Source: Pseudotabrizicola algicola
GTDB lineage: Bacteria; Pseudomonadota; Alphaproteobacteria; Rhodobacterales; Rhodobacteraceae
Length of the DNA: 64,000 nt
Direction: 5' to 3'
Assembly: GCF_010915705.1 (NCBI RefSeq)
Contig: NZ_JAAIKE010000003.1
Coordinates: 310,001-374,000 of the forward strand
Shown here piece after piece: positions 31,017-63,062 of this stretch. The notes under the pieces were generated by a model that made no database searches, was not told the origin of the DNA, and saw only the letters and a list, made by a program, of their open reading frames with translations. Both the position numbers and the translations under genes were made by a program. The number at the start of each line of letters is the position of its first letter. Within the stretch, counting starts at the first letter, position 1.

Positions 31017-31046
31017 CGCCGCGCGGCCCGTGCCGCGCGGCGGTTT
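31017..31046. terminator. Hairpin between pheT and the DUF1523 gene
   Basis: A perfect 11-bp stem (31017-31027 with 31032-31042) with a CCGT loop, followed by GTTT on the plus strand. Positioned to end pheT and probably the convergent operon too. Confidence 0.7.
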
Positions 31047-35474: not shown

Positions 35475-35482
35475 ATTGCCCC

Positions 35483-36613
35483 CTAGCGCGTGGCGATGAT
35501 GCGCCCGCCAGCCCCCACAACGAACTTTCTGACATCGCGAAACCCCGGCGGGTTCAGCTCCGCGAGGGCCTGATAGGGCTGTTCGGGCAGCACCACCATG
35601 CGGTCCATGCGCGTGGTGCCGGTGTCTGCCCCCTTGCCGGCAAAGGGGTCGAGCGCGAAGATCTGCCGCTCTGCCGTGCTGAACCAGCCGTCCCTGACCT
35701 GCTCCACGCGTTCGGCGCGCAGATCCTCCACCGTCCAGACCAGCGCCCAATCCTGCCCTTCGGGCGCGCGCGCGGTGGCGAGCACATCGGAGATCGGCCC
35801 CGATTGCAGAGTGAAACTGTGCGAATACATCGGCCCCAGATGGATGCGCCGCAACCGCTTGGGGTGCAGGGTGGGGAAATCGGTATCAAAGCCCTGCGCG
35901 ATGGTCAGCAGCTTCAGCCCCGCCACCGATTGCGCCATCAGATGGTGCTTGGCACGGGGCCAGCGGCCGTCATCGGAGGGCAGGGGGCGTTTTCCGCTGT
36001 CTTCCAGATCCAGCAGATAGACCACGGGCAGGTTGACCTGCGTGTCATAGACCGCCCAATGCACCAGATAGTGACGCCGGCCGTTGCGGTCCTCGATCCA
36101 CTGCGCATCGGGGTCATTGCGGGCCAGAAACAGGCCGCCTTGCGCCAGAGCCTCGTGGTAAAGCCGCTGCGACAGCGCGAATTGCAGGTCGGTGGGCAGC
36201 GCCAGATCGCCCACGATGCGGCGGATCATGCGGTCCTTCAACTCGTCAACCGAGGCGCTGCCCGAAAGATGCTTTCCCGCCTGTGCGGCATCGACGGCCA
36301 TCACCATCAGCTCTTGCGCGACCGGAAACCCGCTTTCGTGGCGGTCGAAGGTCAGGCGCTGTGCCACCTCTGACCGCCCCGTCATCAGGTATTTGCAGGA
36401 CAGCGCACGAAAGGTGCTGGCCAAGGCGCTGATATAGCGCCCCAGCACCCGCGCCTCGGTGCGGGTCAGGCTGCCCTCGCGCTCCAACTCGCCCGCGACA
36501 CGGGCCAGATGGCCGGAGATATTGTCGAACTTGGCGAAATAGCGCCGCGCGACCAGCGTGTCATAAAGCTCGGTATGGTCGTTCGTCAGCTGCGCCTTGA
36601 CCTCGTTTGCCAC
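35483..36613 (-). CDS. Uncharacterised 376-aa protein of the AAA operon
   Basis: A soluble, mixed alpha/beta protein without a family I recognise. The N-terminal third is helical (HLARVAGELEREGSLTRTEA), and the middle contains YLVHWAVYDTQVNLPVVYLLDLEDSG, a strand-rich stretch. The C-terminal third (GPMYSHSFTLQSGPISDVLA, WALVWTVEDLRAERVE) also looks strand-rich. The start directly abuts the stop of the coiled-coil gene upstream, and it precedes the ATPase by eight bases. Confidence 0.78.
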   Translation of the reverse strand: MANEVKAQLTNDHTELYDTLVARRYFAKFDNISGHLARVAGELEREGSLTRTEARVLGRYISALASTFRALSCKYLMTGRSEVAQRLTFDRHESGFPVAQELMVMAVDAAQAGKHLSGSASVDELKDRMIRRIVGDLALPTDLQFALSQRLYHEALAQGGLFLARNDPDAQWIEDRNGRRHYLVHWAVYDTQVNLPVVYLLDLEDSGKRPLPSDDGRWPRAKHHLMAQSVAGLKLLTIAQGFDTDFPTLHPKRLRRIHLGPMYSHSFTLQSGPISDVLATARAPEGQDWALVWTVEDLRAERVEQVRDGWFSTAERQIFALDPFAGKGADTGTTRMDRMVVLPEQPYQALAELNPPGFRDVRKFVVGAGGRIIATR

Positions 36614-37687
36614 TTATTCCCCATACGCGTTCTTGTCGTGTTTCTCGACAATCGCGGCAAAGCGGCGGTTGAACCGCTCATCCGCCTTGGCCTTCTGCTC
36701 GAGGATCTTTCGGGCAAAGACCATATGGCCCTCGTGCGCCTCCAGCATCCCGGCCATACGGTCATTGGTCGCCGAGCCGATTGCGGCCATCGCCGCCTGC
36801 GCCTCTTGGTCGGTTTTCACGCCGATCTCGTTGATGCGGTGCGCCACATCCTGCTGTTGCGCGGTTTTCAGACTGCTGGACAGCGCGTCATAGAGGACAA
36901 CCCGCTGCTTGGTATCGGTCTGCAGCTTGTTGATCAGCACCATCTGGGTGGCCGCCTGATTCTGCAGGCTGTCCATCCATGTCTTGCCCTTTTCGATATA
37001 GCGCTCCAGCGTCTGGCTTTTGGCCAGCTGCACCTGTTCGTCCTGCACCAAGGCGTTGAAGCGGGTGTTGATCTCGGCCAATTGCGTTTCCAGCCGCGTG
37101 CGGGCGGCGGCGTCCTGCTCGACGCTGATCCGGTTTTCCAGATCGATGATCGTGGGGTCCAGTCCGGCAATCTCGGCGCGCAGCGCCTCCAGCGTCGCCA
37201 CTGTCGCCTCGCGCTCTGCCAAGGTGGCAGAAAGGTTCGTCTCGACCCGCGCCTTCTGGCTGTTCAGAAGATCGAGCTGGCCTTGCAGCAATCTCACGAT
37301 CACGTCGGATTTGGCGATCAGATCTTGCAACTTGTCGTCGATGCTGGCGGTGCGCATCCGCTCTTGCCGCATGGCCTCGGACTTTGCGCTGCTGAAAATC
37401 CCGATGAAACTTTCCATTCCGGTTTTCGAGCGCATCTCGTCGAAATCCTTGGAAAAGGCCGATGTCACATCGTCCAGTCCCATGATCAGCTCGGCAATGT
37501 TGGCGTTCATCACCTCGGCATGCTTGTGCACATCTTCCAGAGTGGCGTTTTCGATGTCGATGGCGGCCTCGCCCTGATCGAGGCTCTGCCGCGCGCTCTC
37601 GATCCGGCTTGTCACCGCGCTGATCTTGGCTTGGGCCTCGGCCACCTGCTTCTGGCTTTCGAGAATCTGCGCATTGAAATCAGCCAT
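36614..37687 (-). CDS. Coiled-coil protein, first gene of the AAA operon
   Basis: A 357-aa protein that is almost wholly alpha-helical with long heptad runs (residues about 5-60 and 110-260). It has no membrane segment. One non-coiled insert reads SKTGMESFIGIFSSAKSEAMR. The C-terminal part has QRVVLYDALSSSLKTAQQQ and ends with a charged tail. It weakly recalls TelA/toxic-anion-resistance-like helical proteins, but I would not assign it to them. The ATG at 37687 follows GGAGGAC on the minus strand. The promoter and operator lie just upstream. Confidence 0.82.
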   Translation of the reverse strand: MADFNAQILESQKQVAEAQAKISAVTSRIESARQSLDQGEAAIDIENATLEDVHKHAEVMNANIAELIMGLDDVTSAFSKDFDEMRSKTGMESFIGIFSSAKSEAMRQERMRTASIDDKLQDLIAKSDVIVRLLQGQLDLLNSQKARVETNLSATLAEREATVATLEALRAEIAGLDPTIIDLENRISVEQDAAARTRLETQLAEINTRFNALVQDEQVQLAKSQTLERYIEKGKTWMDSLQNQAATQMVLINKLQTDTKQRVVLYDALSSSLKTAQQQDVAHRINEIGVKTDQEAQAAMAAIGSATNDRMAGMLEAHEGHMVFARKILEQKAKADERFNRRFAAIVEKHDKNAYGE

Positions 37688-43995: not shown

Positions 43996-46137
<2,142 letters not shown>

Positions 46138-46528: not shown

Positions 46529-47935
46529 ATGCCCGTAGGAAACGCGCTCGCCTTTTTCATGCTGGCCATATGGCCGGTGGTTTCGTGGATATTCTTCACG
46601 AAAATGCCTCCGGCACGCGCGCTGATCTGGACCATCCTCGGGGCCTATATGCTCTTGCCTCCGGTGGTGGCGATCGATCTGCCGCTGGTGCCGGATATCG
46701 ACAAATACGCGGCGGGCAGCCTCGCGGCGCTGGTGGCGGTGCTGTTCCTGCTGCGCAAGCGGTTCGGGCTGTGGCCCGACGCGATGCTGGGGCGCGGGCT
46801 GATCCTGCTTTACCTCATCAGCCCCTTTGCCACGGTGATGACCAACACGGACCCGATCTGGTTTCCCGAACGCACGCTGCCCGCCTTGCGCCTCTATGAC
46901 AGTCTGGCCGTCGTCGGCACGCAGTTCATCGCGCTGATCCCCTTCTTTCTGGGCCGCCGCTTTCTGGGCAGCGAACAGGCCATGCGGGCGCTGGTCGTCG
47001 CACTGGTGGTGGCGGGGCTGATCTACTCGCTGCCCATGCTGCTCGAGGCGCGCATCTCGCCCCAGTTGAACCTCTGGGTCTACGGCTTCTTCCAGCATGA
47101 TTTCAGCCAAGCCATCCGCTTTGGCGGATTCCGCCCTTTCGTGTTCATGCCGCACGGGCTGTGGGTCGCCTTCTTTGCCCTGATGTGCTTCATCGCGGCG
47201 GTCACGCTGTTCCGCATCGGTCCTGCCGCGGCGCGCCCGCGCTATCTGGTACTGGCGCTCTATCTTCTGGTTGTGCTGCTCTATTGCCGCAGCGCGGGGC
47301 CGCTCATCTATGCGCTGCTGCTGGTGCCGATGGTCACGCTGCTTTCGCGGCGGATGCAGGTGCTGCTGGCGGGGCTCATGGTGCTGGTGGTCATCACCTA
47401 TCCGCTGCTGCGCGGCCTGCATCTGGTGCCGGTCGATGACATCCTGAACCTCGCGCTCGGCCTCAACCCCGAACGCGGGGCCTCGCTGCAATTCCGTATC
47501 CTGAACGAAGAACTGCTGCTCGACCGCGCGGCAGAGCGGCCCTGGTTCGGCTGGGGGCTCTACGGGCGGGGGCTGATGCACGACCCGATCACGGGCCAGA
47601 TCAACGTGATCGCCGATGGCGGCTGGATCATCACGCTCGGCACCTTCGGCTGGGCCGGTTACATCGCCGAATTCGGGCTGCTGGCGCTGCCGATCCTGTT
47701 GCTCGCCCGCGAGGCGCTGCGCCAACCCGGATCGGCGCTTTCCCCCTTCGCCTGCGCCGTGGCACTGATCCTTGCGGTCAATCTGGTGGATCTTCTGCCC
47801 AATGACACGCAGATTCCCTTCACATGGCTGATGGCAGGGGCGGTGCTGGGCTATGCCGAGGCGTTGCGCGCCCGCTGGAAGTCCGGTCATCTGCCTGCCG
47901 CGGCACAGTTGCAACCAGGGCGGACCGTGCTGTGA
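46529..47935 (+). CDS. O-antigen ligase/polymerase-like membrane protein
   Basis: A 468-aa polytopic protein with ten or more membrane helices. A large soluble loop late in the sequence (VPVDDILNLALGLNPERGAS and RAAERPWFGWGLYGRG) has the WzyC/WaaL-type pattern, including the PWFGWG stretch before a periplasmic loop. Proteins of this class join or polymerise sugar-lipid units on the outer face of the inner membrane. Start chosen at 46529 (alternative 46475); neither has a good ribosome site. It is the first gene of the cluster and overlaps the next start (GTGA). Confidence 0.82.
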   Translation: MPVGNALAFFMLAIWPVVSWIFFTKMPPARALIWTILGAYMLLPPVVAIDLPLVPDIDKYAAGSLAALVAVLFLLRKRFGLWPDAMLGRGLILLYLISPFATVMTNTDPIWFPERTLPALRLYDSLAVVGTQFIALIPFFLGRRFLGSEQAMRALVVALVVAGLIYSLPMLLEARISPQLNLWVYGFFQHDFSQAIRFGGFRPFVFMPHGLWVAFFALMCFIAAVTLFRIGPAAARPRYLVLALYLLVVLLYCRSAGPLIYALLLVPMVTLLSRRMQVLLAGLMVLVVITYPLLRGLHLVPVDDILNLALGLNPERGASLQFRILNEELLLDRAAERPWFGWGLYGRGLMHDPITGQINVIADGGWIITLGTFGWAGYIAEFGLLALPILLLAREALRQPGSALSPFACAVALILAVNLVDLLPNDTQIPFTWLMAGAVLGYAEALRARWKSGHLPAAAQLQPGRTVL

Positions 47936-49218
47936 CGCGCCGCCTGCGCGTCCTTCTGCTGGCCGAGGCGGCAAACCCCGAATGGGTGTCGGTGCCGCTG
48001 GTGGGCTGGTCGCTGGCCCGTGCGCTGGCCGAGGTGGCCGATGTGCATGTGGTGACGCAGGTGCGCAACCGCGACGCCTTCCTGCGCGCGGGGCTGGTCG
48101 AGGGGCGCGACTTTACCGCCATCGATTCCGAGGCGCTGGCAGGGCCCCTTTGGAAGCTGGGCACCTTCCTGTCGGGCGGGCGCGGCGGCTGGACGATCCA
48201 GCAGGCGGTGGCAACGATCAGCTATCCCTATTTCGAACATCTGGTCTGGAAGCGGTTCGGTCCGGACATCCGCGCCGGGCGCTATGATGTGGTGCACCGC
48301 ATCACCCCGCTGTCTCCTGTGCAGCAAAGCCCGATTGCGGCGAAGTGCCGTGCCGCAGGGGTGCCATTCGTGCTGGGGCCGATCAACGGCGGCGTGCCTT
48401 GGCCCAAAGGCTTCGAGGCCGAGATGAAGCGCGAGCGCGAATGGCTGTCAAAGGTGCGGGGCCTCTACCGCGCGCTGCCGGGGCGGCGGTCCACCTTGCG
48501 CGCCGATGCCATACTGGCCGGATCGCGCCAGACCCTGCGCGACATTCCCGCGCGCCACCATGACAGGGTGATCTACCTGCCCGAGAATGCGATTGACCCC
48601 GCGCGGTTCAATGCGCGGGCGCTGCATGGCGGGCCGGGGCCGATGCGCGCCTGTTTCATCGGGCGTCTGGTGCCGCTCAAGGGGGTCGACATGCTGATCG
48701 CCGCTGCCGCCCCCCTCTTGCGCGACGGCAGGCTGGTGCTCGAGATCATCGGCGATGGTGACATGATGGCCCCCTTGCGCGCGCAGGCGGCAGAGTTCGG
48801 AGGCGGGGTGATCTTCCACGGCTGGAAGGCGCATGCCGAGGTGCAGGACATTGCCGCCCGCTGCCAGCTTCTGGCCTTTCCTTCCATCCGCGAATTCGGC
48901 GGCGGTGTGGTGCTCGAGGCGATGGCGCTGGGCCTTGCGCCGGTTGTCGTCGACTACGCCGGCCCCGCCGAACTGGTCACCGATGCGACCGGCTGGAAGG
49001 TGCCGATCACGGGGCGCGCGGGCGTGATCGCGGGGCTGGCCGCGCGTCTGGCGTGGTGCGTCGATCACCCCGCCGAGGTTGCTGCCAAGGGCGAGGCTGC
49101 CCGCGCGCGGGTGCAGGCGCTGTTCACATGGGAACGCAAGGCCGAACAGGTCCTCGGCATCTATCACTGGATTGTGACCCCGGACCGCCCGAAACCGGAC
49201 CCCTTCGGGCAGGAATAA
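47932..49218 (+). CDS. Family 4 (GT4) glycosyltransferase
   Basis: A 428-aa GT-B enzyme. The GTG start at 47932 overlaps the previous stop. The N-terminal acceptor domain begins RLRVLLLAEAANPEWVSVPL. The C-terminal nucleotide-sugar domain has FIGRLVPLKGVDMLIAAAA, LEIIGDGDMMAPLR and the donor motif SIREFGGGVVLEAMALG followed by PVVVDYAGP, the EX7E-type region of GT4. Soluble or peripheral. It probably adds a sugar to the lipid or polyketide made by the cluster. Confidence 0.9.
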   Translation: MTRRLRVLLLAEAANPEWVSVPLVGWSLARALAEVADVHVVTQVRNRDAFLRAGLVEGRDFTAIDSEALAGPLWKLGTFLSGGRGGWTIQQAVATISYPYFEHLVWKRFGPDIRAGRYDVVHRITPLSPVQQSPIAAKCRAAGVPFVLGPINGGVPWPKGFEAEMKREREWLSKVRGLYRALPGRRSTLRADAILAGSRQTLRDIPARHHDRVIYLPENAIDPARFNARALHGGPGPMRACFIGRLVPLKGVDMLIAAAAPLLRDGRLVLEIIGDGDMMAPLRAQAAEFGGGVIFHGWKAHAEVQDIAARCQLLAFPSIREFGGGVVLEAMALGLAPVVVDYAGPAELVTDATGWKVPITGRAGVIAGLAARLAWCVDHPAEVAAKGEAARARVQALFTWERKAEQVLGIYHWIVTPDRPKPDPFGQE

Positions 49219-49296
49219 GTCAGCCCCGGTTCCTTATTTTAGCCAAGTTTGCTACATACCAAACGGGTCTTGATTGTCTGCCGAGTGTTTTTCCTG

Positions 49297-52200
49297 ATGC
49301 CCGATTCCCTGATCCCGCCCGATCTTTCAGACACCGACATCGCGATTGTCGGCATGGCGGCGCATCTTCCGGGCGCGGACGATATTTCGACCTATTGGCA
49401 GAATCTGCGCGGCGGGATCGAGTCGATCAAGGTGCTCGACGAAGCCACCCTGCTGGCAGCAGGGGAATCGCCCGCACGTCTGGCGCGCCCCAATTACGTG
49501 CCCGCCGCCGCGCTGCTTGACGGGTTCGAACAGTTCGACGCCGAGTTTTTCGGCTTTTCCCCCAAAGAAGCCGCCATCCTCGACCCCCAGCACCGCCAGT
49601 TCCTCGAAGTGGCATGGGAGGCACTTGAGAACGCGGGCCACCCGCCAGAGCGGTTTTCCGGCCCCATCGGGGTCTGGGCGGGCTGCGGCATGGGGTCGTA
49701 TTTCTACTTCAACCTCTGCTCGCACCGCGATCTGGTCGATCAGACCGGCATGTTCCTTCTGCGCCATACCGGCAATGACAAGGATTTTCTGGCCACCCGC
49801 GTCAGCCATATCCTCGACCTCAAGGGGCCGAGCATCAATGTGCAGACCGCCTGTTCCACCAGCCTCGTGGCGGTGCATTACGCGGCGCAGGCGCTGCTCA
49901 ATGGCGAATGTGACATGGCTCTTGCGGGGGGCGTCACCATCGAACTGCCCCATGCGCGCGGCTATCTCTATACCGAAGGCGAAATCCTGTCGCCCGATGG
50001 CCATTGCCACGCCTTCGACCACCGCGCGCAAGGCACCGTCTTCGGCTCGGGCGCGGGCTGCGTCGTGCTGCGCCGCGCAGCGGATGCGGTGCGCGATGGC
50101 GACCACATCTGGGCCATCATCAAGGGTTCTGCGGTGAACAATGACGGCGCGGCCAAGGCGGGCTATCTCGCCCCCTCGGTCGACGGTCAGGCCCGCTGCA
50201 TCGCCGAGGCGCAGGCGGTGGCGGGGGTCAGCGCCGACACCGTCACCTACGTCGAATGTCACGGCACCGGCACCTATCTGGGCGACCCGATCGAGGTGGC
50301 GGCCCTTACCGCCGCCTTCCGCGAAACCACCGATGCCGTGGGCCATTGCCGCATCGGCAGCGTCAAGACCAACATCGGCCATCTCGACACCGCCGCAGGG
50401 GTGGCCAGCCTCATCAAGGTGGCGCTGGCGCTGCACCACCGCGAACTGCCGCCCAGCCTCGGCTACGAAGCGCCCAATCCGGCCATCGACTTCGAAACCT
50501 CGCCCTTCCGCGTGAATGACCGCCTGTCGCCTTGGTCCGCGCCCCTGCGCCGCGCCGGGGTCAACAGCCTTGGCGTCGGCGGCACCAATGCCCATGCCGT
50601 GCTGGAGGAGGCCCCGCCGCGCCCCGCTTCCGCGCAAAGCGACTGGCCCTTCCAGCCGCTGGTGCTGTCGGCGCGCAGCAAATCCGCGCTCGATGCCGCC
50701 AGCACCCGCCTTGCGCAGCATCTGCGCGCCAACCCCGATCAGCCGCTCGCCGATGTCGCCTTTACGCTGAAGGAAGGCCGCCGCGCCTTTGACAAGCGCC
50801 GCGTGCTGGTGGCCGAAACCCATGCGCAAGCCGCCGAGATACTGGAAAGCGGCGATCCGCGCCGGATCTTCACCCATGACCATCTGGGCGACGACCCCGA
50901 GGTGGTGTTCATGTTCCCCGGCGGCGGCGCGCAATATGCGGGCATGGCGCGCGACCTGTATGAGACGGAACCCGTCTTCGCCGACTGGATGGATCGCGGC
51001 CTTGCGGTGCTGGAGCCGAAGCTCGACTATGACATCCGCGCGCTCTGGCTGCCCGCGCCGGGGGCCGAGGCGGCGGCGACCGAGGCGCTCAAGCGCCCCT
51101 CGGTGCAACTGCCGCTCATCATGATCACCGAATACGCGCTGGCCAAACTCTTCGAGTCATGGGGCGTGACCCCGACGGCGCTGGTCGGCCATTCGATGGG
51201 CGAAAACACCGCCGCCGCCCTCGCGGGCGTGATGTCCTTCGAAGATTGCATCGGCCTCGTCCACCTGCGCGGCACGCTGTTTGATACGATCGCGCCCGGC
51301 GGCATGCTCTCGGTGCCGCTGTCGGAGGAAAACCTTCGCAAGACCCTGTCCCGCCTCGGCTATTCTCTGCCAGAGACCGCCAGTGCTGCGCCCCTGGTTC
51401 CCGAACCACTGGCGACGGGGCAGGCCCGCCGTCCGACGGCGCAACTGGACATCGCCTCGGTCAATGCGCCCGACCTCTGCGTCCTCTCCGGCCCCGATGC
51501 CACCCTCGCCACCCTTGCCGCCTCCCTCGCCGCCGAGGGGATCGAGACCCAGCGCATCGCCATCGACATCGCCGCCCATTCCGCCATGCTGGAGCCGATC
51601 CTCCGGCGCTTCGGCGACTACCTGCGCTCTATCGCGCTCAATGCGCCCGATGTCCCGATCATCTCCAACCGCACCGGCGCGGAACTCACGGCGGCGCAGG
51701 CGACCGACCCCGAATACTGGGTCCAGCACCTGCGCAACACCGTGCATTTCCGCGCCTGCATGGCCACGCTGACCGCCACTCCGGGGCGGGTCTATGTGGA
51801 AATGGGGCCGGGGCGGGCGCTGTCCTCGCTCGCGCAGGCAAACGGGGTTGCGTCGGGTCAGGTGATTCCGGCCCTGCGCCACCCCGACCAGCGCATGGCG
51901 GATGACGCATGGCACATGGTCACCCTCGCGCGGCTCTGGGCCTGCGGGGTGGCGATCGACTGGGACCAGATCTGGGGCGACGCCCCGCGCCAGCGGGTGC
52001 CGCTTCCGGGCTATGCTTTCCAGCGCAAACCCTATTTCATCGCCCCCGCCCTTGGTCAGACGCCCGAGGAACAGCCGCTGCCTGCCCGTATCGACGATCT
52101 GTCGGCATGGGGCTGGCGGCCCCAGTGGCGGCCCGTGGCGGCGGGTTTCGATGTCGATGACCTGCCCGACGCCCCGCCGGAAACATGGCTGGTGTTCCTC

Positions 52201-55200
52201 GATGACACCGGCCTTTGCGCATCGGTGGCCGACCGTCTGGCGCAGGCGGGGCACCGCGTGGTGCGGGTCCGCGCAGGCGATGCCTTTGCCCGCGACGCGC
52301 AGGGCGACTACCGCCTGTCGCCCGAACGCGGGCGCGAAGGCTATGACGCGCTGATCCGCGATCTGGTGGCGCGCGGTCTGGCCCCGTCGCGCATCCTGCA
52401 TGGCTGGCTTGTGACCGCGCGCGAAACCTTCCGTCCCGGCTCCAGCTTCCTGCACCGCAACATCGAGCAGGGCTTCTACGCGCTGATGTTCCTCGGTCAG
52501 GCACTGGCCGAGGAAAACCTGCCGCGCCCGATCCGGCTGACCGTGCTCACCACTGGCGCGGCGCGGGTGCGGGACGAGGTGCTGGCCTATCCCGAAAAGG
52601 CGATGGTCCTCGGTCCCGCCCGCGTGATCCCGCGCGAGGTGCCGGGGGTGCAGGTCGGCCTGCTCGATCTGGGGCCGGATGCCCCGGCGGAAGTGGTGCT
52701 CGAAGAGGTGCTGTCCGACACGCCCGCCATCGCCGCATGGCGCAAGGGGCGGCGCTATCAGGCGGGGGTAAAGCCGGTGGCCCTGCCCGAAAGCGGGCTG
52801 ACGCTTCCCACGGGCGCGCATGTGCTGATCACCGGCGGCTTTGGTGGCATTGGCCTGACCGTGGCCGAAGATATGATCCGCCGCTTCGGTGTCAGGATCA
52901 CGCTGATCGCGCGCAGACCCCTGCCGGAACGCGGGCTCTGGCCCGCGGTTCTGGCCAAGGCCGCGCCGGGCGATCCGCTGGCGCGGCGCATCCTTGCCCT
53001 GCAACGGCTGGAGGCCTTGGGCGGCGCGGTGCTGGTCGCCCGCGCCGATGTGGCCAATGTCGATGAGATGCAGGCCGCCCGCACGGCAGGCGAAACCTGC
53101 TTTGGGCCCGTTCATGCGGTGATCCATGCGGCGGGTGTGGTCGATGACGGCCCGCTGCTGGTGAAAACCCCGGCCGAGGTCGAAGAGGTCTTCGCCCCCA
53201 AACTCCACGGCACGCAGGTGCTCGAACGTCTGTTCCCCGACGGGTCCATCGCGCTTCTGGTGCTGTTCTCCTCCACCTCCACGGTGACGGGGCCGGCGGG
53301 GCAGATCGACTATGTGGCGGCCAACGAATACCTCAACGCCTATGCCAAGCACCGCGCGGGCGGCAAGACCCGCGTGGTGGCGCTCAACTGGGGCATCTGG
53401 CAGGGCGTCGGGATGGCGGCCGAGGCGCTGGCCGACCGTGCGGGGCGGGTGGAATCCCCGCGCGTGCCGCTTGCAGCGCCAATGCTGGACGAATCCGGCT
53501 TTGACCGCGACGGCAACCGTGTGTTCCATGCGCGCTACGGGCTTGACCGCTGGGTGCTGGACGGGCACCGCACCAAGGATGGCACCGCGCTGATCCCCGG
53601 CACCGGCTATCTGGAGGTGATGGCCGAGGCTTGGGCCGCCCAGGGCGAAGGCGATGCTTTCGAGATCCGCGATCTGACCTTCTTCCGCGCGCTGGATGTG
53701 GGCGATGAACCGCGCCCCGTGCGCGCGCGCCTTCAGCGCAGCGACGAAGGCTACGGGTTCGAATTGCACTCGGGCCTGATGGTCAAGGGCCGCACCGGCT
53801 GGCTCCTGCATGCGTCGGCGCGGCTGATGCCCTTGGCAGGGACCGCGCCCCGGCTTGATGTGGCGGCCCTTTCCTCGCGCCTGCCCGCGCCCGAGGTGGG
53901 CGCGGGGCTGGTCAGCCCGCAAGAGGCGCATCTCGATTTCGGTCCGCGCTGGCGGGTGCTGACCTCGCGCAGTCTGGGGCAGGGCGAGGGCTTGGCCCAT
54001 CTGGCCTTGCCCGACGCCTTTGCCGCCGAACCCGATCAGGGCTGGCGCATCCACCCCGCGCTGATGGACCTTGCGACGGGCTGGGCCATGGGGCTGATCG
54101 ACGGCTACACGCCCGACGCGCTCTGGGTGCCGGTTTCTTATGCGCGGGTGCGCGTCTATCGCCCGCTGCCCGCCCGCATCGTCAGCCACATGCGCAACGC
54201 CGCCGCCAATACGGCGGCGCGCGGCAGCGCCAGCTTTGACGTGACGCTCGCCACGCCCGATGGCGAGGTCTGCATCGAGGTCGAAGGCTTCACCATGCAC
54301 CGGCTGGACGGCGGCCTGCGCCTGACGCCCCCCGATCCGCGCGGCCTCGAGGTGGATGCCGTGCAGACCCGCGCAAGCTCGCCCGCCGAGGAACGCCTGC
54401 TGCATGCCTTCTCGCAAGGCATCCGCCCCGAGGAGGGGGCCGAGGCCTTTGGCCGCGCGGTGGCGCTGGGGCAAAGCCAGATCATCGTCTCCTCGCTCGA
54501 CCTGCCCGCGCTGATCCGCGCGGCGGCGGTGGCGGAGGAGACACGCAGCGAAGGCACCAGTTTCGAGCGCCCCGATCTGGACAGCGCCTATGTAGAGCCA
54601 CGCAATGACATCGAGCGCACTCTTGTGGGGTTCTGGCAGGACCTCTTGGGCGTCGCCCGCGTCGGGGTCGAGGACAGCTTCTTCGACCTTGGCGGCCACA
54701 GCCTGATTGCGGTGCGCCTGTTTGCGATGGTCAAAAAGGCCTACCGCGTCGACTTCCCGATCTCGGTCCTGTTCGAGGCCCCCACCATCGCCGCCTGCGC
54801 GCGTCTGATCGAAGACCAGATCGGCCCGCAGGACAGCGGGGAAGGGGCAGGGCCCGACGGTGCGGCAGAGCCGCGCGCGCCGCAGCGCCGCTTCACCCAT
54901 ATCGTGCCGATGCACAAGGGCGAGGGGCGCGGCGATGGCGGTGCCAAGACGCCGTTCTTCCTTGTGGCGGGCATGTTCGGCAATGTGCTCAACCTGCGCC
55001 ATCTGGCACAACTTCTGGGCGGCGACCGGCCCTTCTACGGGTTGCAGGCGCGCGGTCTTTATGGCGACGCGCAGCCGCATGCCGATTTCGTCACCGCCGC
55101 CCGCGACTACATCGCGGAAATGCGGCAGGTGCAGCCCGTTGGCCCCTATCTCTTGGGTGGCTTCTCGGGCGGCGGTCTGATCGCATGGGAAATCGCCCGC

Positions 55201-55743
55201 CAGCTCGAGGCAGAGGGAGAAGCGGTGCCGCTGGTCGTGCTGCTCGACACGCCGGTGCCGATGCGGCCCCAGCTGTCCAAGCTGGACAAGCTGATGATCC
55301 GCGCCGCCGAACTGCGCGCCGAAGGGCCGGCTTTCTTCGCCCGCTGGTGGCGCGAGAAACAGGCATGGAAACGCGCGCAAGGCGCGCAGACCACCGACGA
55401 GGGCGCCTTCCACAACGCCGCGATCGAGGCCGCCTTCCGCGCCGCCCTGCCGCTCTACCAGATGGCCCCGCGTCAGGGGGCCACCGTGCTGTTCCGCCCC
55501 GCGCTCGACAGGCGCTGGCAGGTGACCGGCGGGCGCTGGGTCAGCACCGCACGCGAATTCGTGTTCCCCGACAATGACCTGGGCCAATTCGCCCCGGCGC
55601 TGGACGTGATCGAGGTGCCGGGCGACCATGACAGCATGGTGCTGGAGCCGAATGTGCGGGTGCTGTCCGCCCGCCTGCGCGCGGTGATCGAAGCGGCAGA
55701 AGGCACCGCGCCGGTGGCGTGGCTGGCCGCAGCGGCGGAATAG
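49297..55743 (+). CDS. Type I polyketide synthase, KS-AT-KR-DH-ACP-TE
   Basis: A 2,148-aa single-module megasynthase. KS (about 10-430) has the catalytic triad Cys186 (TACSTSL), His322 (ECHGTGT) and His362 (TNIGH). AT (about 540-860) has Ser633 in GHSMGE; its specificity site reads IAAHS, neither the HAFH malonyl nor the YASH methylmalonyl form. KR (about 1170-1380) has GGFGGIG and a B-type-like VDD. DH follows the KR: His1424 in DGHRTKDGTALIPG and Asp1591 in HPALMD. ACP has Ser1802 in LGGHSL; TE has Ser1957 in GGFSGGG. No ER or methyltransferase is seen. ATG 49297 is the best start, though without a clear ribosome site. Confidence 0.93.
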   Translation: MPDSLIPPDLSDTDIAIVGMAAHLPGADDISTYWQNLRGGIESIKVLDEATLLAAGESPARLARPNYVPAAALLDGFEQFDAEFFGFSPKEAAILDPQHRQFLEVAWEALENAGHPPERFSGPIGVWAGCGMGSYFYFNLCSHRDLVDQTGMFLLRHTGNDKDFLATRVSHILDLKGPSINVQTACSTSLVAVHYAAQALLNGECDMALAGGVTIELPHARGYLYTEGEILSPDGHCHAFDHRAQGTVFGSGAGCVVLRRAADAVRDGDHIWAIIKGSAVNNDGAAKAGYLAPSVDGQARCIAEAQAVAGVSADTVTYVECHGTGTYLGDPIEVAALTAAFRETTDAVGHCRIGSVKTNIGHLDTAAGVASLIKVALALHHRELPPSLGYEAPNPAIDFETSPFRVNDRLSPWSAPLRRAGVNSLGVGGTNAHAVLEEAPPRPASAQSDWPFQPLVLSARSKSALDAASTRLAQHLRANPDQPLADVAFTLKEGRRAFDKRRVLVAETHAQAAEILESGDPRRIFTHDHLGDDPEVVFMFPGGGAQYAGMARDLYETEPVFADWMDRGLAVLEPKLDYDIRALWLPAPGAEAAATEALKRPSVQLPLIMITEYALAKLFESWGVTPTALVGHSMGENTAAALAGVMSFEDCIGLVHLRGTLFDTIAPGGMLSVPLSEENLRKTLSRLGYSLPETASAAPLVPEPLATGQARRPTAQLDIASVNAPDLCVLSGPDATLATLAASLAAEGIETQRIAIDIAAHSAMLEPILRRFGDYLRSIALNAPDVPIISNRTGAELTAAQATDPEYWVQHLRNTVHFRACMATLTATPGRVYVEMGPGRALSSLAQANGVASGQVIPALRHPDQRMADDAWHMVTLARLWACGVAIDWDQIWGDAPRQRVPLPGYAFQRKPYFIAPALGQTPEEQPLPARIDDLSAWGWRPQWRPVAAGFDVDDLPDAPPETWLVFLDDTGLCASVADRLAQAGHRVVRVRAGDAFARDAQGDYRLSPERGREGYDALIRDLVARGLAPSRILHGWLVTARETFRPGSSFLHRNIEQGFYALMFLGQALAEENLPRPIRLTVLTTGAARVRDEVLAYPEKAMVLGPARVIPREVPGVQVGLLDLGPDAPAEVVLEEVLSDTPAIAAWRKGRRYQAGVKPVALPESGLTLPTGAHVLITGGFGGIGLTVAEDMIRRFGVRITLIARRPLPERGLWPAVLAKAAPGDPLARRILALQRLEALGGAVLVARADVANVDEMQAARTAGETCFGPVHAVIHAAGVVDDGPLLVKTPAEVEEVFAPKLHGTQVLERLFPDGSIALLVLFSSTSTVTGPAGQIDYVAANEYLNAYAKHRAGGKTRVVALNWGIWQGVGMAAEALADRAGRVESPRVPLAAPMLDESGFDRDGNRVFHARYGLDRWVLDGHRTKDGTALIPGTGYLEVMAEAWAAQGEGDAFEIRDLTFFRALDVGDEPRPVRARLQRSDEGYGFELHSGLMVKGRTGWLLHASARLMPLAGTAPRLDVAALSSRLPAPEVGAGLVSPQEAHLDFGPRWRVLTSRSLGQGEGLAHLALPDAFAAEPDQGWRIHPALMDLATGWAMGLIDGYTPDALWVPVSYARVRVYRPLPARIVSHMRNAAANTAARGSASFDVTLATPDGEVCIEVEGFTMHRLDGGLRLTPPDPRGLEVDAVQTRASSPAEERLLHAFSQGIRPEEGAEAFGRAVALGQSQIIVSSLDLPALIRAAAVAEETRSEGTSFERPDLDSAYVEPRNDIERTLVGFWQDLLGVARVGVEDSFFDLGGHSLIAVRLFAMVKKAYRVDFPISVLFEAPTIAACARLIEDQIGPQDSGEGAGPDGAAEPRAPQRRFTHIVPMHKGEGRGDGGAKTPFFLVAGMFGNVLNLRHLAQLLGGDRPFYGLQARGLYGDAQPHADFVTAARDYIAEMRQVQPVGPYLLGGFSGGGLIAWEIARQLEAEGEAVPLVVLLDTPVPMRPQLSKLDKLMIRAAELRAEGPAFFARWWREKQAWKRAQGAQTTDEGAFHNAAIEAAFRAALPLYQMAPRQGATVLFRPALDRRWQVTGGRWVSTAREFVFPDNDLGQFAPALDVIEVPGDHDSMVLEPNVRVLSARLRAVIEAAEGTAPVAWLAAAAE

Positions 55744-55744
55744 C

Positions 55745-56749
55745 ATGGCCCGCGTGTTGACGGTCATCCTGAACTGGCGGACGGCGCAGATGACCCTGCG
55801 CGCCGCCGAGGCCGCGCTGATCGCGATGCACGGCATCGAGGGCGCGCTGGTGATCGTCGACAACGACTCCGGCGATGGCAGTTTCGAGGTGATGGCCGCC
55901 GAAGTCGCGGCGCGCGGCTGGGATCATGGCCCCCACCGCGTGCGGGTGCTGCAATCGGGGCGCAACGGCGGCTTTGGCGCGGGCAACAACTTCGGCATCC
56001 GCGCCGGTCTGCCGGATGGCACGCCGCCCGATTACGTCTATCTGCTGAACTCCGACGCCTTTCCCGCGCCGGATGCCATTGCCGCCCTGCTTGCCCATCT
56101 GGAAAACCACCCCGACACAGGCTTTGCCGGCAGCCACATCCACGGCGAGGATGGCACGCCGCACCACACCGCCTTCCGCTTTCCTTCCATCGCGGGGGAA
56201 TTTGAACAGGCCGCGCGGTTCGGCCCGATCTCGCGCCTGCTGCGCCGCGCCATCGTCGCCCCGCCCTTGCCGCAGGTTACGGGCCGGGTCGACTGGCTGG
56301 CGGGGGCCAGCCTGATGATGCGCCGCAGCGTGCTCGACCGGATCGGCCTCTTCGATGAAACCTTCTTTCTCTATTTCGAGGAAACCGAGCTTTGCCTGCG
56401 CGCGGCGCGGGCGGGCTGGCCCACCGATTACGTGGTCGAAAGCCGCGTCGCGCATATCGGCTCTGCCTCCACCGGAATGAAGGGCTGGCAGCGGATTCCC
56501 CGCTTCTGGCTCGACTCGCGCCTCTATTACTACGCCAAATCGCATGGCCGCGCCTATGCGCTGGCCGCGACGGCGGCGCATGTGGCGGGCGGCCTGATCT
56601 GGCGCGCGCGTGCGTTGATTCAGCGCAAGGATTTCATCGATCCCGCGCATTACCTTGGCGATATGTCGGCCCATGCGGCGGCATGGGCGCTGTCCGGGTT
56701 CCGGCCCGTGGCGCAGGGAGAGGCCGCAGCGGCGGCGAGGAGAGTGTGA
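55745..56749 (+). CDS. Family 2 (GT2) glycosyltransferase
   Basis: A 334-aa GT-A enzyme resembling rhamnosyltransferases. Family motifs are [53 protein letters not shown] (the DxD-like metal site) and [26 protein letters not shown] followed by [10 protein letters not shown]. Starts one base after the PKS stop and overlaps the NRPS start by one base, so it is tightly coupled between the two megasynthases. Confidence 0.92.
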
Positions 56750-59700
56750 TGAGTCAAAGTGCGATTCTGATCGGCAACGAAAGCCTGACGCAGGCCTGCG
56801 GCGCGGCATGGCTGGCGCGCGGGCATCGTCTGGTGGCGGTGGTCACACGCGACGCGGCGGTGCGCACTTGGGCGCAAGGCGCGGGCCTGCGCGTCGAGGC
56901 GCCGGGCGCAGGGCTTGCCGCGCGTCTGGCGGGCGCGTCCTGCGACTGGCTCCTGTCGGTCGCCAACCTGTCGCTGGTGCCTGCATCCGTGCGGGCGCTG
57001 GCCACGCGGGGGGCGATCAACTTCCATGACGGGCCGCTGCCGCGCTATGCGGGCCTGAACGCCCCCGTCTGGGCCTTGCTGGCGGGCGAGGCGCAGCACG
57101 GCATCACATGGCACCTGATGACCGATGGCGTCGACGAAGGCGACATTCTGGAACAGCGCCTGTTCGACATCGCCCCGGCAGAAACCGCGCTCTCGCTCAA
57201 CACCTGCTGTTTCGAGACGGGGCTTGAAAGTTTCTCGGCGCTGATGGCGCAGATGGAAAGCGGCCTGCGCCCGCAGCCGCAGGATTTCACCCGGCGGCAG
57301 GTGTTCGCGCGCGCGGATCGCCCCGCAGCCTTCGGGCGGCTCGATTTCACCGCCCCTGCCGAAGCGGTGGCGCGTCAGGTGCGCGCGCTGGATCATGGCC
57401 GATACTGGAACCCGCTGACCACGGCCAAGATCGCAGGCTCTTTCGGCGTGCTGAACGTCGGCGCCGCCGATGTGGTCGCGGGGTCGGGCTTGCCCGGCAC
57501 GGTGCTGTCCGCCTCGCCCGAAGGCGTGGTGGTGGCCTGCGGATCGGGCGCGGTGCGTCTGCACCGTCTGACCTGCCAAAGCCGGGGCCTGCCCGTCAGC
57601 CCCGAAACGGTGCAGGATCTCGCGCCCCTGACCGACGCGCAGGCGCTGACCGCCGCGCTTGCCGCGCTGGCCCCCGCCGAACCGGCGATCCGCAAGCGGC
57701 TTGCCGCGCTGTCGCCTCTGGTGGTGGCAGGCACGGGGGGCGGGCAGGGCTGGCTGCGGATCGACCTTGCGGGCGATGCGGCAACGCTGGCCGTGGCCCT
57801 CGCCCATGTCTCGGGGCAGGACAGCCCCGATGTGGCACTTTCCACGTCGCCGGGCCTGCCCGGCTATGTCAGCGACTGGGTGCCGGTGCGGGTGCCGACC
57901 GGCGGCACGCTGGCCGAGGCGCGGGCGGCGCTTTCGGCAGACACCGCCCCCGGCTTCGCGCTTGACCTGATGACGCGTGACGTGGCGCTGGCCGATCTGG
58001 CGGTGCCGCAGGTGGGCGTCTCGCGCCACGGCGCGCCGGTTGCAGGAACGGTGGTCACCCTGACCGATGGGGCGCTGCTCGCCGATCTCTCCCGCCTGTC
58101 CGAGGCCGAGGCGCGGGCGCTGGCCGACCGTCTCGCCTTCGTCGTTCAGGCGGCGGATCGGGTCGAAAGGTTTGCCGATCTGCCCCGCATGACACCGCAG
58201 GAACGTCATGCTGTCCTGCATGACGTGAACCAGACGCTCGCCGCACGCGCTGCATACTGCGTGCATCAGGCGTTCGAGGCGCAGGTCGACCGCACCCCCG
58301 ACGCTCCGGCGGTGAGTTTCGAGGCGGTGACGCTGACCTATGCCGCGCTCAACGCCCGCGCCAACCGCGTGGCGCATGTGCTGCGCGGGCTGGGCGTCGG
58401 GCCGGGGGTTCTGGTCGGCCTGCACATCCGCCGCAGTCTCGACATGCTGGTGGGCGCCTTGGCAATTCAAAAAGCGGGTGGGGCCTATGTGCCGATGGAC
58501 CCGGCCTATCCCTCTGATCGCACGGCACTTTTCATCGAAGACAGCGCCTGTCCGGTGATCGTCACCACCTCCGATCTGGCGCGTGGCCTGCCGTCTTCTG
58601 TGGCGGCGCTCTGCCTTGATACCGATGGGCGCATCCCCGTGGCCGACCAGACCAACCCCATATCTGGTGTGGGGCCCGCCGATCTGGCCTATATGATCTA
58701 TACATCCGGCTCCACCGGACGGCCCAAGGGAGTGATGGTCGAACATCGCAACGTGGCCAATTTCTTCACGGGCATGGACCAGCGCATCGGCCCCGAACCC
58801 GGCGTCTGGCTGGCCGTCACCTCGCTTTCCTTCGACATTTCCGTGCTGGAACTGTTCTGGACCTTGGCGCGCGGATTCAAGGTGGTGATCTCGTCCGACG
58901 AGAACCGGGCGCTGGTTTCGTCCGGGCGCATCGTTTCGTCAGAAAAGATGGACTTTTCAATCTATTACTGGGGAAATGACGATGGCGTCGGCCCCAAGAA
59001 ATACGAGCTTTTGCTCGAAGGCGCCAAGTTCGCCGACACCCACGGCTTCGTCGCCGTCTGGACGCCGGAGCGGCATTTCCACGCCTTTGGCGGCCCCTAT
59101 CCCAACCCTTCGGTGACAGGTGCCGCCGTGGCCGCGGTCACCAAGAACATCGGGGTGCGCGCGGGGTCTTGCGTGGTGCCGCTGCACCACCCCGCCCGCA
59201 TCGCCGAGGAATGGGCGGTGATCGACAATCTGACCGGCGGGCGCGCGGGGATTGCCATCGCAAGCGGCTGGCAACCCGATGATTTCGTTCTAAAACCTGA
59301 AAACACGCCGCCCCGCAACAAGGCCGCGATGTATGAGGCGGCCGATCAGGTGCGCAGGCTGTGGCGCGGCGAAGGGGTGGATTTCCCCAAGGCCGATGGC
59401 GGCATGTTCACCGTGGTCAGCCAGCCGCGCCCCGTGTCGGCGGAACTGCCGATCTGGGTGACGACCGCCGGAAATCCGGAAACATGGCGCGAGGCCGGAG
59501 AGATGGGGGCCAATGTGCTGACCCACCTTCTGGGCCAGTCGGTCGATGAGGTGGCGGCCAAGATCAAGCTCTACCGCGAGGCCCGCGCCAAGGCGGGCCA
59601 CGACCCGCAGGCGGGCATCATCACCTTGATGTTGCACACTTATGTCGGGCGTGACCGCGAACAGGTGCGTCGCGTGGCCGAAGCGCCGATGAAGGCCTAT

Positions 59701-61254
59701 CTGGCCGCGGCGGTCGGTCTGGTCAAGCAATATGCCTGGGCCTTCCCCGCCTTCAAGAAGCCGCAGGGTGTCACCAACCCGATGGACATCGACCTGCGCA
59801 GCCTGAGCGCCGAAGAGAATGACGCGATCCTCGATTTCGCCTTCCAGCGCTATTTCGAGGATTCGGGCCTGTTCGGCACGGTGGAAGACGCGCTGGCGCG
59901 GGTCGAACAACTCAAACGCATCGGCGTGGGTGAAGTGGCCTGCCTCATCGACTATGGCATCGCGCCCGAACAGGTGATGGAGGGGCTCTATCCCCTCGCC
60001 GAAGTGGTGCGCCGCGCCAATGCAGGCGGCGGGGTCGAGGCGGATGACTTCTCGATCGCGGCGCAACTGATCCGGCACAAGGTCACCCACCTGCAATGCA
60101 CCCCCAGCATGGCCCGGATGATCGCCCTGAACGAAGACTCGCGGGCGGCCCTTGCCGGGGTGAAAACCGTGATGGTGGGCGGCGAGGCGCTGCCGGGGGC
60201 CTTGGTGCAAGACCTGCGGGCGGCGACTTCGGCGCGCCTGCTCAACATGTATGGCCCGACCGAAACCACGATCTGGTCTTCGGTCGAAGAGGTTGGCGCA
60301 GGGGAAGCGGTGGTCAATATCGGCACACCTTTGCCCAACCAGCAGATGTATGTGCTGGACGAGACACAAGATCCTGTGCCGGTCGGCACGCCGGGCGAAT
60401 TGTGGATCGGCGGCGACGGGGTGACGCGCGGCTATTGGCGGCGCGATGATCTGACCGCCGAACGTTTCCTGCCCGATCCTTTCGTCACGCCAGATCGTGC
60501 CTGCCCTTGGGGCGCGCGCATGTATCGCACCGGCGATCTGGTGCGGCGCAGGGCCGATGGAAAGATCGACTTTCTGGGCCGCGCCGACCATCAGGTCAAG
60601 CTGCGCGGCTACCGGATCGAACTGGGCGAGATCGAGGCGGTGCTGGAGGCGCAGCCCGGCGTGCGGCAGGCCGTCGTGATGGCGCGCGAGGACACGCCCG
60701 GCGATCTGCGGCTGGTGGGCTATGTCACCGGCACCGCCCATGAGGCGGGATTGCGTGCGGAACTGGCCGCTGTCTTGCCTGAACATATGGTGCCTGCGCA
60801 TATCGTGACTCTTGACGCCTTTCCGCTGACCCCCAACCGCAAGCTCGACCGCAAGGCGCTGCCCGTACCGCAAGCGCGTGGGGCGGAGCCGGTCAGCTTC
60901 GTGGCGCCCGCATCGGATGTGGAAGCGCAGATCGCCGCCGTCTGGGCGCGGGTGCTGGGGGTGCCGAAGGTGGGCGCAAAGGACAACTTCTTTGCGCTGG
61001 GCGGGCATTCTTTGCTTGCCGTGCAGGCCCACCGCGAAATCCGCGAGGCGTTGGGGGCGGCGAAACTCTCGATCACCGATATTTTCCGCTTTCCCACGCT
61101 GCAAGCTCTCGCTGCCCATCTTGACGATGGCCCCCGGCCCGCCGCCGCACCGGCGGTCAAGCCTGCCGGATTGGCAGCGCAGGCCGATGCCCGCGCCGAG
61201 GCGATGGCGCGCAGACGGGCCATGCGGGCAGGGCGGGCGGGCGTGGATGCCTGA
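56749..61254 (+). CDS. NRPS: formyltransferase, adenylation with inserted luciferase-like monooxygenase, carrier domain
   Basis: A 1,501-aa protein. An N-terminal formyltransferase (1-165) has Asn91/His93 in [13 protein letters not shown] and Asp132 in DEGDI, then its C-terminal subdomain to about 290. Residues about 300-500 look like a condensation-domain remnant without HHxxxDG, ending in the usual linker. The adenylation domain has [11 protein letters not shown] and Asp696 in FDIS (alpha-amino acid recognition). It is interrupted at 734-1090 by an FMN-dependent luciferase-like monooxygenase of the MupA/Atu3671 type (FSIYYWGND...). It resumes with [15 protein letters not shown] and NRKLDRKAL. 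The carrier domain has Ser1421 in LGGHSL. There is no thioesterase, so the product must pass to a partner, presumably the PKS. Confidence 0.92.
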
Positions 61255-61891
61255 CGCCGCCCTGCTGGCGGCGCTGCGGGGCATCGTCCCCGCCGGTGCG
61301 GGCCTTGGCCGCGCCGATCCGCGCGCGGACCATCCGCTGCTGGCGGGCGAAGCCATTGCGGGCGCCGTGCCGGCACGCCTGCGCGAGTTTGCTGCGGGGC
61401 GCGCGGCGGCCCGCAGGGCAATGGCAGCGATCGGCGAGGTGGCGGCGCAGGCTATTCCGATGGGTGCCGACCGCGCGCCGCAATGGCCTCCGGCTGTTAC
61501 AGGCTCCATCACCCATACAGACAGCCACTGTCTCGCGGTTGCGCTGCCCTCTACCCTCTGCCGGGGCATCGGAATCGATCTGGAAGCGGATACGCCGCTC
61601 GACATGGCCCTGTGGGATGTGGTCCTGCGCCCCGATGAGCGGGACGGCATGACCGGCGCGCAGGCAAAGGCAATCTTCTGCGCCAAAGAGGCGGCCTATA
61701 AGGCGCAATATGCGCAAAGCCGCCAGCTTTTCGGCTTTGACACCCTGCACGTTACCTTTGCGGGCAATCATTTCGCGGCGACCTTCACCCGCGACGTGCC
61801 GCCCTTTTGCGGCGGCGACCGGATTGCCGGGTCGGTGCTGCGCGTCGCGGGCCATCTGCTGGCCGCCGCCCACATCCCGCCGCACGGCTAA
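61247..61891 (+). CDS. 4'-phosphopantetheinyl transferase, EntD/Sfp superfamily
   Basis: A 214-aa enzyme that loads phosphopantetheine on the carrier serines of the PKS and NRPS. The conserved motifs are [22 protein letters not shown] (metal-binding Asp) and [13 protein letters not shown]. The start at 61247 overlaps the NRPS by eight bases, so it is the last gene of the cluster. The protein resembles the siderophore-type EntD branch more than AcpS. Confidence 0.92.
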
Positions 61892-62267: not shown

Positions 62268-63062
62268 ATGAAACATCTCATCCCGTTCCTTCCCAAACCG
62301 CCCATCGTGCCGGTGATCCGTTTGCAAGGCGCGATCGGCGCCGGCGGGCGCAGCCTGTCGGATCAGGCGCTGGCCCCTTTGCTGGAGCGGGCCTTTTCCC
62401 GTGGCAAACCCGCCGCCGTGGCATTGGTCATCAACTCGCCCGGAGGCTCGGCCGTGCAGTCCTCGCTGATCGCGGCGCGGATTCGGCGGCTGGCCGACGA
62501 AAAGCGGGTTCCGGTGCATTGCTTTGTCGAGGATGTGGCGGCCTCCGGCGGCTATTGGCTGGCCACGGCCGCCGATCGGATCTGGGTTGACCCCTCCTCG
62601 CTGGTCGGGTCCATCGGGGTGATCTATGCCAGCTTCGGCCTGCACGAACTCTTGGCAAAGAACGGGGTCGAGCGGCGGGTGCATACCGCAGGGCGGTCAA
62701 AATCCTTTGCCGATCCGTTCAAGCCAGAACGTCCCGAAGATGTGGCGCGCATCCATGCCATGCTTGCCCCGCTGCACGAGAATTTCATCGCACAGGTCAA
62801 GGCACGGCGCGGCGCTCGGCTCAAACCCGATGCCGACCTGTTCAACGCCGATATCTGGGTGGGTCAGGCCAGCGTTGAAAACGGGCTGACCGACGGAATC
62901 GGGCATCTGGTGCCGAAGATGAAGGAACTTTACGGCGACAAGGTGCGGTTTGTCCCCTATGGCCAGCGGCGCAGCCTGTTGCAGCGTTTCGGGATGACGA
63001 TGACCGATACCTTCGTCTCGAGCGTCGAGGAACGTGCCCTCTGGGCGCGCTACGGGCTCTAG
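62268..63062 (+). CDS. S49 family peptidase (SohB/SppA-like)
   Basis: A 264-aa Ser-Lys protease of the signal-peptide peptidase group. The catalytic serine is in VEDVAASGGYWLATAADRI, and a candidate general-base lysine is in RSKSFADPF. LVINSPGGSAVQS and SLVGSIGVIY are typical. It lacks a clear N-terminal membrane anchor, so it resembles the short cytoplasmic-side members. The next gene starts directly at its stop. Confidence 0.92.
   Translation: MKHLIPFLPKPPIVPVIRLQGAIGAGGRSLSDQALAPLLERAFSRGKPAAVALVINSPGGSAVQSSLIAARIRRLADEKRVPVHCFVEDVAASGGYWLATAADRIWVDPSSLVGSIGVIYASFGLHELLAKNGVERRVHTAGRSKSFADPFKPERPEDVARIHAMLAPLHENFIAQVKARRGARLKPDADLFNADIWVGQASVENGLTDGIGHLVPKMKELYGDKVRFVPYGQRRSLLQRFGMTMTDTFVSSVEERALWARYGL

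Follow-up and report, generated by a model that had tools for sequence, protein, structure and literature searches.

A nonribosomal peptide synthetase-polyketide synthase cassette of Rhodobacteraceae as a probable arm of a Wzx/Wzy-dependent surface polysaccharide pathway

What do a nonribosomal peptide synthetase (NRPS) and a type I polyketide synthase (PKS) produce when they are encoded together with glycosyltransferases (GT) and an enzyme of the O-antigen ligase/polymerase fold? Six genes at positions 46529-61891, all on the same strand, raise this question in the Rhodobacteraceae genome of Pseudotabrizicola algicola (4.49 Mb, 29 contigs); the window analysed is a stretch of 64,000 nucleotides of its contig C23 (positions 310001-374000). 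We assign the cluster, with a probability of roughly 80%, to a Wzx/Wzy-dependent surface polysaccharide pathway as its NRPS-PKS arm, and the assembly-line chain is probably a part of the polysaccharide and not a free metabolite. The six genes described in a first-pass annotation of this DNA are confirmed, and the operon proposed there is borne out as an operon-like arrangement, judging from the sequence. The order is WaaL/Wzy-fold membrane enzyme, GT4, one-module PKS, GT2, NRPS and 4'-phosphopantetheinyl transferase (PPTase):

46529..47935, plus strand: WzyL, integral membrane protein of the Wzy/WaaL fold (468 aa), predicted polysaccharide polymerase
47932..49218, plus strand: GT4 glycosyltransferase, EpsH-related (PF00534; NCBIfam EPS_EpsH 474 bits, not reaching the cut-off of 800)
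49285..55743, plus strand: type I PKS, a single module of ketosynthase (KS), acyltransferase (AT), ketoreductase (KR), dehydratase (DH), acyl carrier protein (ACP) and thioesterase (TE); start possibly 49249 or 49297
55745..56749, plus strand: GT2 glycosyltransferase between PKS and NRPS (PF13641/PF00535)
56749..61254, plus strand: NRPS (1501 aa) of formyltransferase (FT), half condensation (C) domain, adenylation (A) domain with monooxygenase, and peptidyl carrier (T) domain, predicted loading module
61247..61891, plus strand: PPTase (PF17837/PF01648)

The inheritance of these genes was profiled in 120 Rhodobacteraceae genomes from 120 genera with one E threshold per query, set once (NRPS 1e-150, WzyL 1e-20, Wzx 1e-60, WecG-type GT 1e-60, control O-antigen ligase 1e-40); the Wzx (locus L099) and WecG-type GT queries were proteins of the source genome. 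The NRPS was found in 45 genomes, WzyL in 50, Wzx in 48, and the WecG-type GT in 49. WzyL occurred in 44 of the 45 NRPS genomes and six of the 75 others (one-sided Fisher p 5e-25), the Wzx subfamily in 44/45 and 4/75 (p 6e-27), marking it as a dedicated flippase, and the WecG-type GT in 45/45 and 4/75 (p 9e-29). Less tightly associated were GT4 (25 of the 120 genomes; 23/45 with and 2/75 without the NRPS) and GT2b (21/45 and 4/75), while the control, a second O-antigen-ligase family protein of the source genome, showed no association (3/45 and 10/75, p 0.93).

In 35 of the 44 genomes that encode both, no more than 30 kb separates WzyL from the NRPS; for Wzx this is so in 34 of 44. The remaining copies lie farther off or on separate contigs, and in fragmented drafts a separate contig may in fact be close by. 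In G034 and G055, Wzx is located more than 1 megabase from the NRPS on the same contig. In the source genome itself, the cassette and Wzx are located on C23 and C1, respectively, and C12 carries the genes for WecG, GT2b, the Wzc-like and Wzz-like proteins, the sugar transferase, and GT4b, each well inside a long contig. Because these genes are kept together though apart, their joint retention argues for one pathway. The Wzx gene on C1 is overlapped at its end by a few bases by a second NRPS gene (L099:10834-14841; C-A-T-TE, with an HHxxxDG motif that looks intact by eye), after which an aldose epimerase is encoded. This second NRPS is present in 3/45 NRPS genomes, source genome included, and a relative (44%) lies beside the cassette in Paracoccus marcusii locus L083.

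Gene neighbourhoods were compared across 84 NRPS-holding loci (80 from genome contigs, four from plasmids), which were fetched by the NRPS, so that the neighbours are a result; several loci are cut by contig ends. The stretches contained the PKS in 79 loci, GT2 in 78, PPTase in 58, and WzyL in 46. PKS, GT2, and NRPS are contiguous on one strand in 76 of the 78 loci with all three, and where a PPTase was found (58 loci), it adjoins the NRPS in 56. Polysaccharide genes recur around this core: Wzx (32 loci), a WecG-type GT (32), candidates for a chain-length regulator (Wzz-like, 36), a kinase (Wzc-like ATPase, 31) and an initiating sugar transferase (11), all three also encoded on C12, and further GTs. 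Pfam scores clear the cut-offs by a wide margin for the Wzx, WecG, and sugar-transferase labels, and the Wzc-like label is aided by a CpsD/CapB annotation at its match in locus L086. Since the source genome has only three Wzx-family (PF13440) matches, we estimate that about one Wzx would be expected by chance across 84 such stretches. Among plasmid-borne and distant relatives, those of Ruegeria (two), Paracoccus, Parasedimentitalea, Aminobacter, and a Deinococcus plasmid are annotated within polysaccharide loci, and the Shinella and Rhizobium relatives have a polysaccharide context by sequence matches. Two recurring neighbour families, of ~802 aa (18 loci; L073:18416-20821) and ~314 aa (27 loci; L024:24905-25846), have representatives without a Pfam match and are possibly unrecognised parts of the polysaccharide system.

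The active sites of the NRPS were read in an alignment of 85 rows, with counts over the rows readable at each site. Its domains are:

56749..57603, plus strand: FT domain (PF00551/PF02911; Asn-His-Asp in 81/81 readable rows)
57610..58266, plus strand: C-terminal half only of a C domain, the HHxxxDG-bearing half being absent
58273..58908, plus strand: A domain, first part, up to A4 (PF00501; top PDB match LgrA)
58954..60006, plus strand: luciferase-like flavin mononucleotide (FMN) monooxygenase between A4 and A5 (TIGR04020, 481 bits, cut-off 244; PDB match PuwE, 6ket_A)
60043..60843, plus strand: A domain, second part, from A5 (top PDB match second A domain of LgrA)
60928..61122, plus strand: T domain (PF00550; Ser in 83/83 readable rows)

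The nearest PDB relative of the FT is methionyl-tRNA formyltransferase. The binding code of the A domain, D-I-L-Q-M-G-M-I-W-K, is predicted to specify glycine; D-I-L starts the code in 85/85 rows, Q follows in 84, and D-I-L-Q-x-G-[M/L]-[I/V]-W holds in the 84 rows (of 85) readable there. Passages of PMC10204066 on the myxothiazol and melithiazol clusters describe a flavin monooxygenase between A4 and A5 that hydroxylates the glycyl alpha-carbon, followed by cleavage to the amide. The cassette NRPS agrees with these in insertion site and predicted amino acid, and by this analogy formylglycyl-T is probably oxidised at C-alpha; the hemiaminal could survive, be cleaved, or cyclise.

In an 80-row alignment, the active-site residues of all six PKS domains are conserved almost throughout the readable rows (counts again over rows readable at each site), and KS, AT, and ACP with intact catalytic residues identify a modular type I PKS:

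49333..50466, plus strand: KS domain (PF00109/PF02801; Cys and both His in 73/73 readable rows)
50905..51840, plus strand: AT domain (PF00698 and NCBIfam acyltransferase matches; GHSMG in 74/74)
52819..53403, plus strand: KR domain (PF08659; Tyr and Asn in 76/78)
53506..54309, plus strand: DH domain, downstream of KR (PF21089/PF14765; His-Gly-Pro in 75/78, Asp in 78/78)
54619..54810, plus strand: ACP domain (PF00550; Ser in 79/79)
54958..55629, plus strand: TE domain, candidate off-loading acyltransferase (PF00975, match ending at 55290 and domain extended to the conserved His; GFSGG/GYSGG in 78/78, His in 78/79)

Two of the six genomes with WzyL and no NRPS above threshold, G085 and G097, do hold the cassette in variant form. 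In G085 (locus L108), the NRPS is a 1140-residue open frame without the monooxygenase, with intact FT and T motifs and the A code DILQLGLIWK (by eye), and the PKS keeps the KS, AT, ACP, and TE motifs, has a dead KR that lost its catalytic Ser and Tyr, and has no DH. The joint loss of monooxygenase, KR, and DH in this one case suggests that the three serve one chemical outcome. The G097 cassette (locus L109) lost the FT, T, KS, AT, and KR sites, its PKS frame has an apparent internal stop, and ACP and TE motifs as well as the polysaccharide genes remain, representing decay or another use.

In the proposed pathway, the PPTase would activate both carrier domains, the NRPS would load glycine as its A code predicts, and the FT would N-formylate it. 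The embedded monooxygenase would then oxidise the carrier-bound formylglycine, probably at C-alpha, the position hydroxylated in the MtaG and MelG modules for myxothiazol and melithiazol. The PKS would extend the chain through its KS by one malonyl-derived unit that the KR would reduce and the DH dehydrate, and the TE would release the resulting short formamido-C4 acyl unit or transfer it to a sugar; the GT2, whose gene sits between those of the PKS and NRPS, is the alternative candidate for the joining reaction. GT2, plus GT4 in this lineage, would build or extend the lipid-linked sugar carrying the unit, the dedicated Wzx encoded elsewhere in the source genome would flip the repeat, and WzyL, first in the operon, would polymerise it. 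Gene content, domain anatomy, conserved active sites, the Wzy/WaaL fold, and the co-inheritance of Wzx, Wzy, and WecG even where unlinked carry this assignment. Substrate, product, attachment enzyme, a polymerase rather than a ligase role for WzyL, and the placement of the unit, on a sugar or within the chain, are inferred, and our confidence in the exact acyl unit and its attachment is low. Tentatively, and with doubts that prevail, we also consider a mixed sugar-polyketide polymer, in which GT2 would glycosylate the carrier-bound or freshly released unit, an assembly-line residue would be covalent in every repeat that Wzx flips and Wzy polymerises, and reductive and oxidative domains would be swapped between lineages, changing the polymer chemistry.

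A free or glycosylated small molecule, such as a signal or antibiotic, with polysaccharide genes nearby merely through shared variable or plasmid-borne islands, would suit the TE at the end of the PKS, the usual release domain, the plasmid location of several cassette relatives, and an Aliiroseovarius plasmid on which a homologous FT-A(monooxygenase)-T gene stands beside a plain NRPS/PKS gene. We give this explanation only a slim chance, as the co-occurrence with WzyL, Wzx, and WecG holds at a distance or across contigs, the unrelated O-antigen ligase does not co-occur with the NRPS, and no exporter or resistance gene was found among the 20 neighbour-family representatives scanned, which do not cover every recurring family. 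Equally improbable is an iterative PKS making a longer chain, polyene or lipid-like, by which the polysaccharide would be anchored, either as its dedicated lipid carrier or as a glycolipid. A single KS-AT-KR-DH-ACP-TE module without enoylreductase can act iteratively, KR before DH is not the common modular order, and the fatty-acid-synthase-like RkpA is required for the rhizobial K-antigen; however, the loader predicts formylglycine, a polar starter, and G085, which keeps FT-A-T, KS, AT, ACP, and TE with a dead KR and no DH, is hard to square with a polyene or lipid. The role of WzyL bears on a further alternative, a WaaL-type ligase that transfers the glycan, with its NRPS-PKS unit, to lipid A or a different acceptor. 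WzyL has the GT-C fold of WaaL, its top structural match, and this fold, shared by WaaL and Wzy, cannot by itself separate the two; WzyL matched no Pfam family at E 0.1, and hence not PF04932 (Wzy_C), of which the sole match in the source genome is another protein. Context nevertheless favours a Wzy-type polymerase, because WzyL co-occurs with the dedicated Wzx, and Wzz-like and Wzc-like genes are present in addition at many loci, together the set for a polymerised polysaccharide, and we consider the ligase unlikely. The proposed pathway would thus have its Wzy-type polymerase in WzyL.

Several observations weigh against the polysaccharide assignment. The Fisher p-values assume independent genera, an assumption that does not hold, and as physical linkage is the rule for most partners, it accounts for part of the co-occurrence. 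The Wzz-like and Wzc-like labels derive from Pfam matches below cut-off (21.8 vs 25.5 and 23.0 vs 25.4 bits). Five Hydrogenophaga/Burkholderiales loci had no Wzx- or WzyL-family member in the stretches examined, the Methylobacterium relative shows just a weak GT match, and the Aliiroseovarius relative adjoins a 9.2 kb NRPS/PKS gene in a stretch without an annotated polysaccharide-synthesis gene; given these contexts, the loading-NRPS family is not confined to polysaccharides. G077, G080, G092, and G104 hold a more divergent WzyL (37-45% identical) in other polysaccharide loci with no NRPS or PKS match within the stretches read, and in G077, G092, and G104 a nearby GT2 is 38-40% identical to the cassette GT2. 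The NRPS-PKS unit is dispensable in G097, as its active sites are lost while the polysaccharide genes stay. Glycine as the meaning of a D-I-L-Q-type code is our assumption and not the output of a predictor, as are the motif names A4 and A5 for the insertion site, and we know of no product, transcript, or mutant for the cassette.

In weighing these points we retain the Wzx/Wzy-dependent pathway. The first-pass annotation had proposed that a peptide-polyketide is assembled on carriers in conjunction with sugar transfer and an enzyme of the WaaL/Wzy type, which our results support, and its preference for a surface glycoconjugate over a siderophore or a simple secreted metabolite holds in direction. 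Its glycoconjugate part thus stands; its specification as a lipopeptide or glycolipid is not supported, as the NRPS starts with an FT, the domain scan detected no fatty-acyl ligase or starter C domain in NRPS or PKS, and the companion genes (Wzx, Wzy, WecG, often Wzz-like, Wzc-like, and sugar transferase) are those of a polymerised polysaccharide. The exporter it had reported as absent is not missing in the case of the flippase, since Wzx is on another contig, whereas its remark on siderophores agrees with our scans, in which neither the window proteins covered (not every open reading frame) nor the 20 neighbour-family representatives included a TonB receptor, siderophore exporter, or reductase.

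The closest NRPS relatives are in Pseudorhodobacter and Pseudotabrizicola records (81-86% identity), which most likely places the host close to the two genera, going by this one gene and not by a species tree. In the NRPS tree, which was made by a quick method and has some open inner forks, Hydrogenophaga/Burkholderiales rows are nested among Rhodobacteraceae rows, consistent with horizontal transfer. The loader's relatives in Aliiroseovarius, Methylobacterium, and Deinococcus lie outside, with long branches whose position is unsure. Because the Aliiroseovarius relative adjoins a plain NRPS/PKS gene, the loader family probably has a role in ordinary assembly lines as well; the Aliiroseovarius plasmid locus (L091:13824-27563) is a candidate for an ordinary formylated-amino-acid natural product. 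Two records appear misplaced: the cassette of L056, titled Nocardioides marinus (an actinobacterium), groups with Leisingera rows and is probably mislabelled or contaminated, and likewise that of L008, a Curvibacter metagenome-assembled genome, groups with Tabrizicola-like rows.

The cluster is flanked by the following genes:

43996-46137, minus strand: PNPase
62268-63062, plus strand: S49-family peptidase

Elsewhere in the window, 33546-37687 on the minus strand encodes an AAA ATPase (33546-35456), plus two proteins (376 and 357 aa) without a convincing Pfam match, adjoining DUF6638 (31991-33352) and DUF1523 (31046-31717) genes. One RTX-repeat protein each is encoded at 14725-15831 of the window and at L098:132-1061, near the polysaccharide genes of C12.

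Genome-mining tools class such PKS-NRPS loci as secondary-metabolite clusters, and a small molecule is then sought in the medium. If our assignment is true, the search has been directed at the wrong fraction, and this in a family with the NRPS in 45 of the 120 sampled genera. It would join assembly-line enzymology with bacterial glycan assembly and offer a genetically testable route to altering a polysaccharide via NRPS/PKS domain changes, and the natural variant G085 suggests that evolution already alters the polysaccharide in this way.

The open-access literature yielded no characterised counterpart and no paper linking such an NRPS-PKS to a polysaccharide. A relative, Phaeobacter inhibens, has a PKS (Inhi_1972) and an NRPS (Inhi_1974) with one locus number between them, for which the relevant passages of PMC4062626 list no product and draw no link to polysaccharide. 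Judged from that listing, with sequences uncompared, these are probably the same cassette, and our assignment, if true, would probably explain this orphan PKS-NRPS.

The terminal modules MtaG and MelG, of the myxothiazol and melithiazol clusters described in PMC10204066, share with the cassette a glycine A domain into which a flavin monooxygenase is inserted at A4-A5. They are chain-terminating and amide-releasing, whereas the cassette module loads, carries an FT and half a C domain, precedes a PKS, and belongs to a polysaccharide system. The linear gramicidin synthetase LgrA, top PDB match of both A-domain parts, likewise initiates by formyltransferase-A-T. It starts a long peptide, however, and the resemblance of its FT is weak (best E 2e-4); its A domain is not known to contain a monooxygenase. 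For oxazole polyketides such as conglobatin and oxazolomycin, FT-A-T loading modules pass an N-formylglycine starter to a PKS. The cassette differs from these in having no cyclodehydratase gene, a monooxygenase, a single PKS module with TE, and its tie to polysaccharide. Wzx/Wzy-dependent pathways have the dedicated Wzx, Wzy-fold enzyme, and WecG-type GT of the cassette system, often with Wzz-like, Wzc-like, and sugar-transferase proteins, but an NRPS, a type I PKS, and a PPTase are not among their standard parts. Small ACP/KS systems make N-acyl groups of bacterial sugars, such as the viosamine of Pseudomonas syringae flagellin, and RkpA acts for the rhizobial K-antigen. To our knowledge these systems include no NRPS, formyltransferase, or embedded monooxygenase; like the cassette, they would place fatty-acid- or polyketide-type chemistry in the service of a surface glycan.

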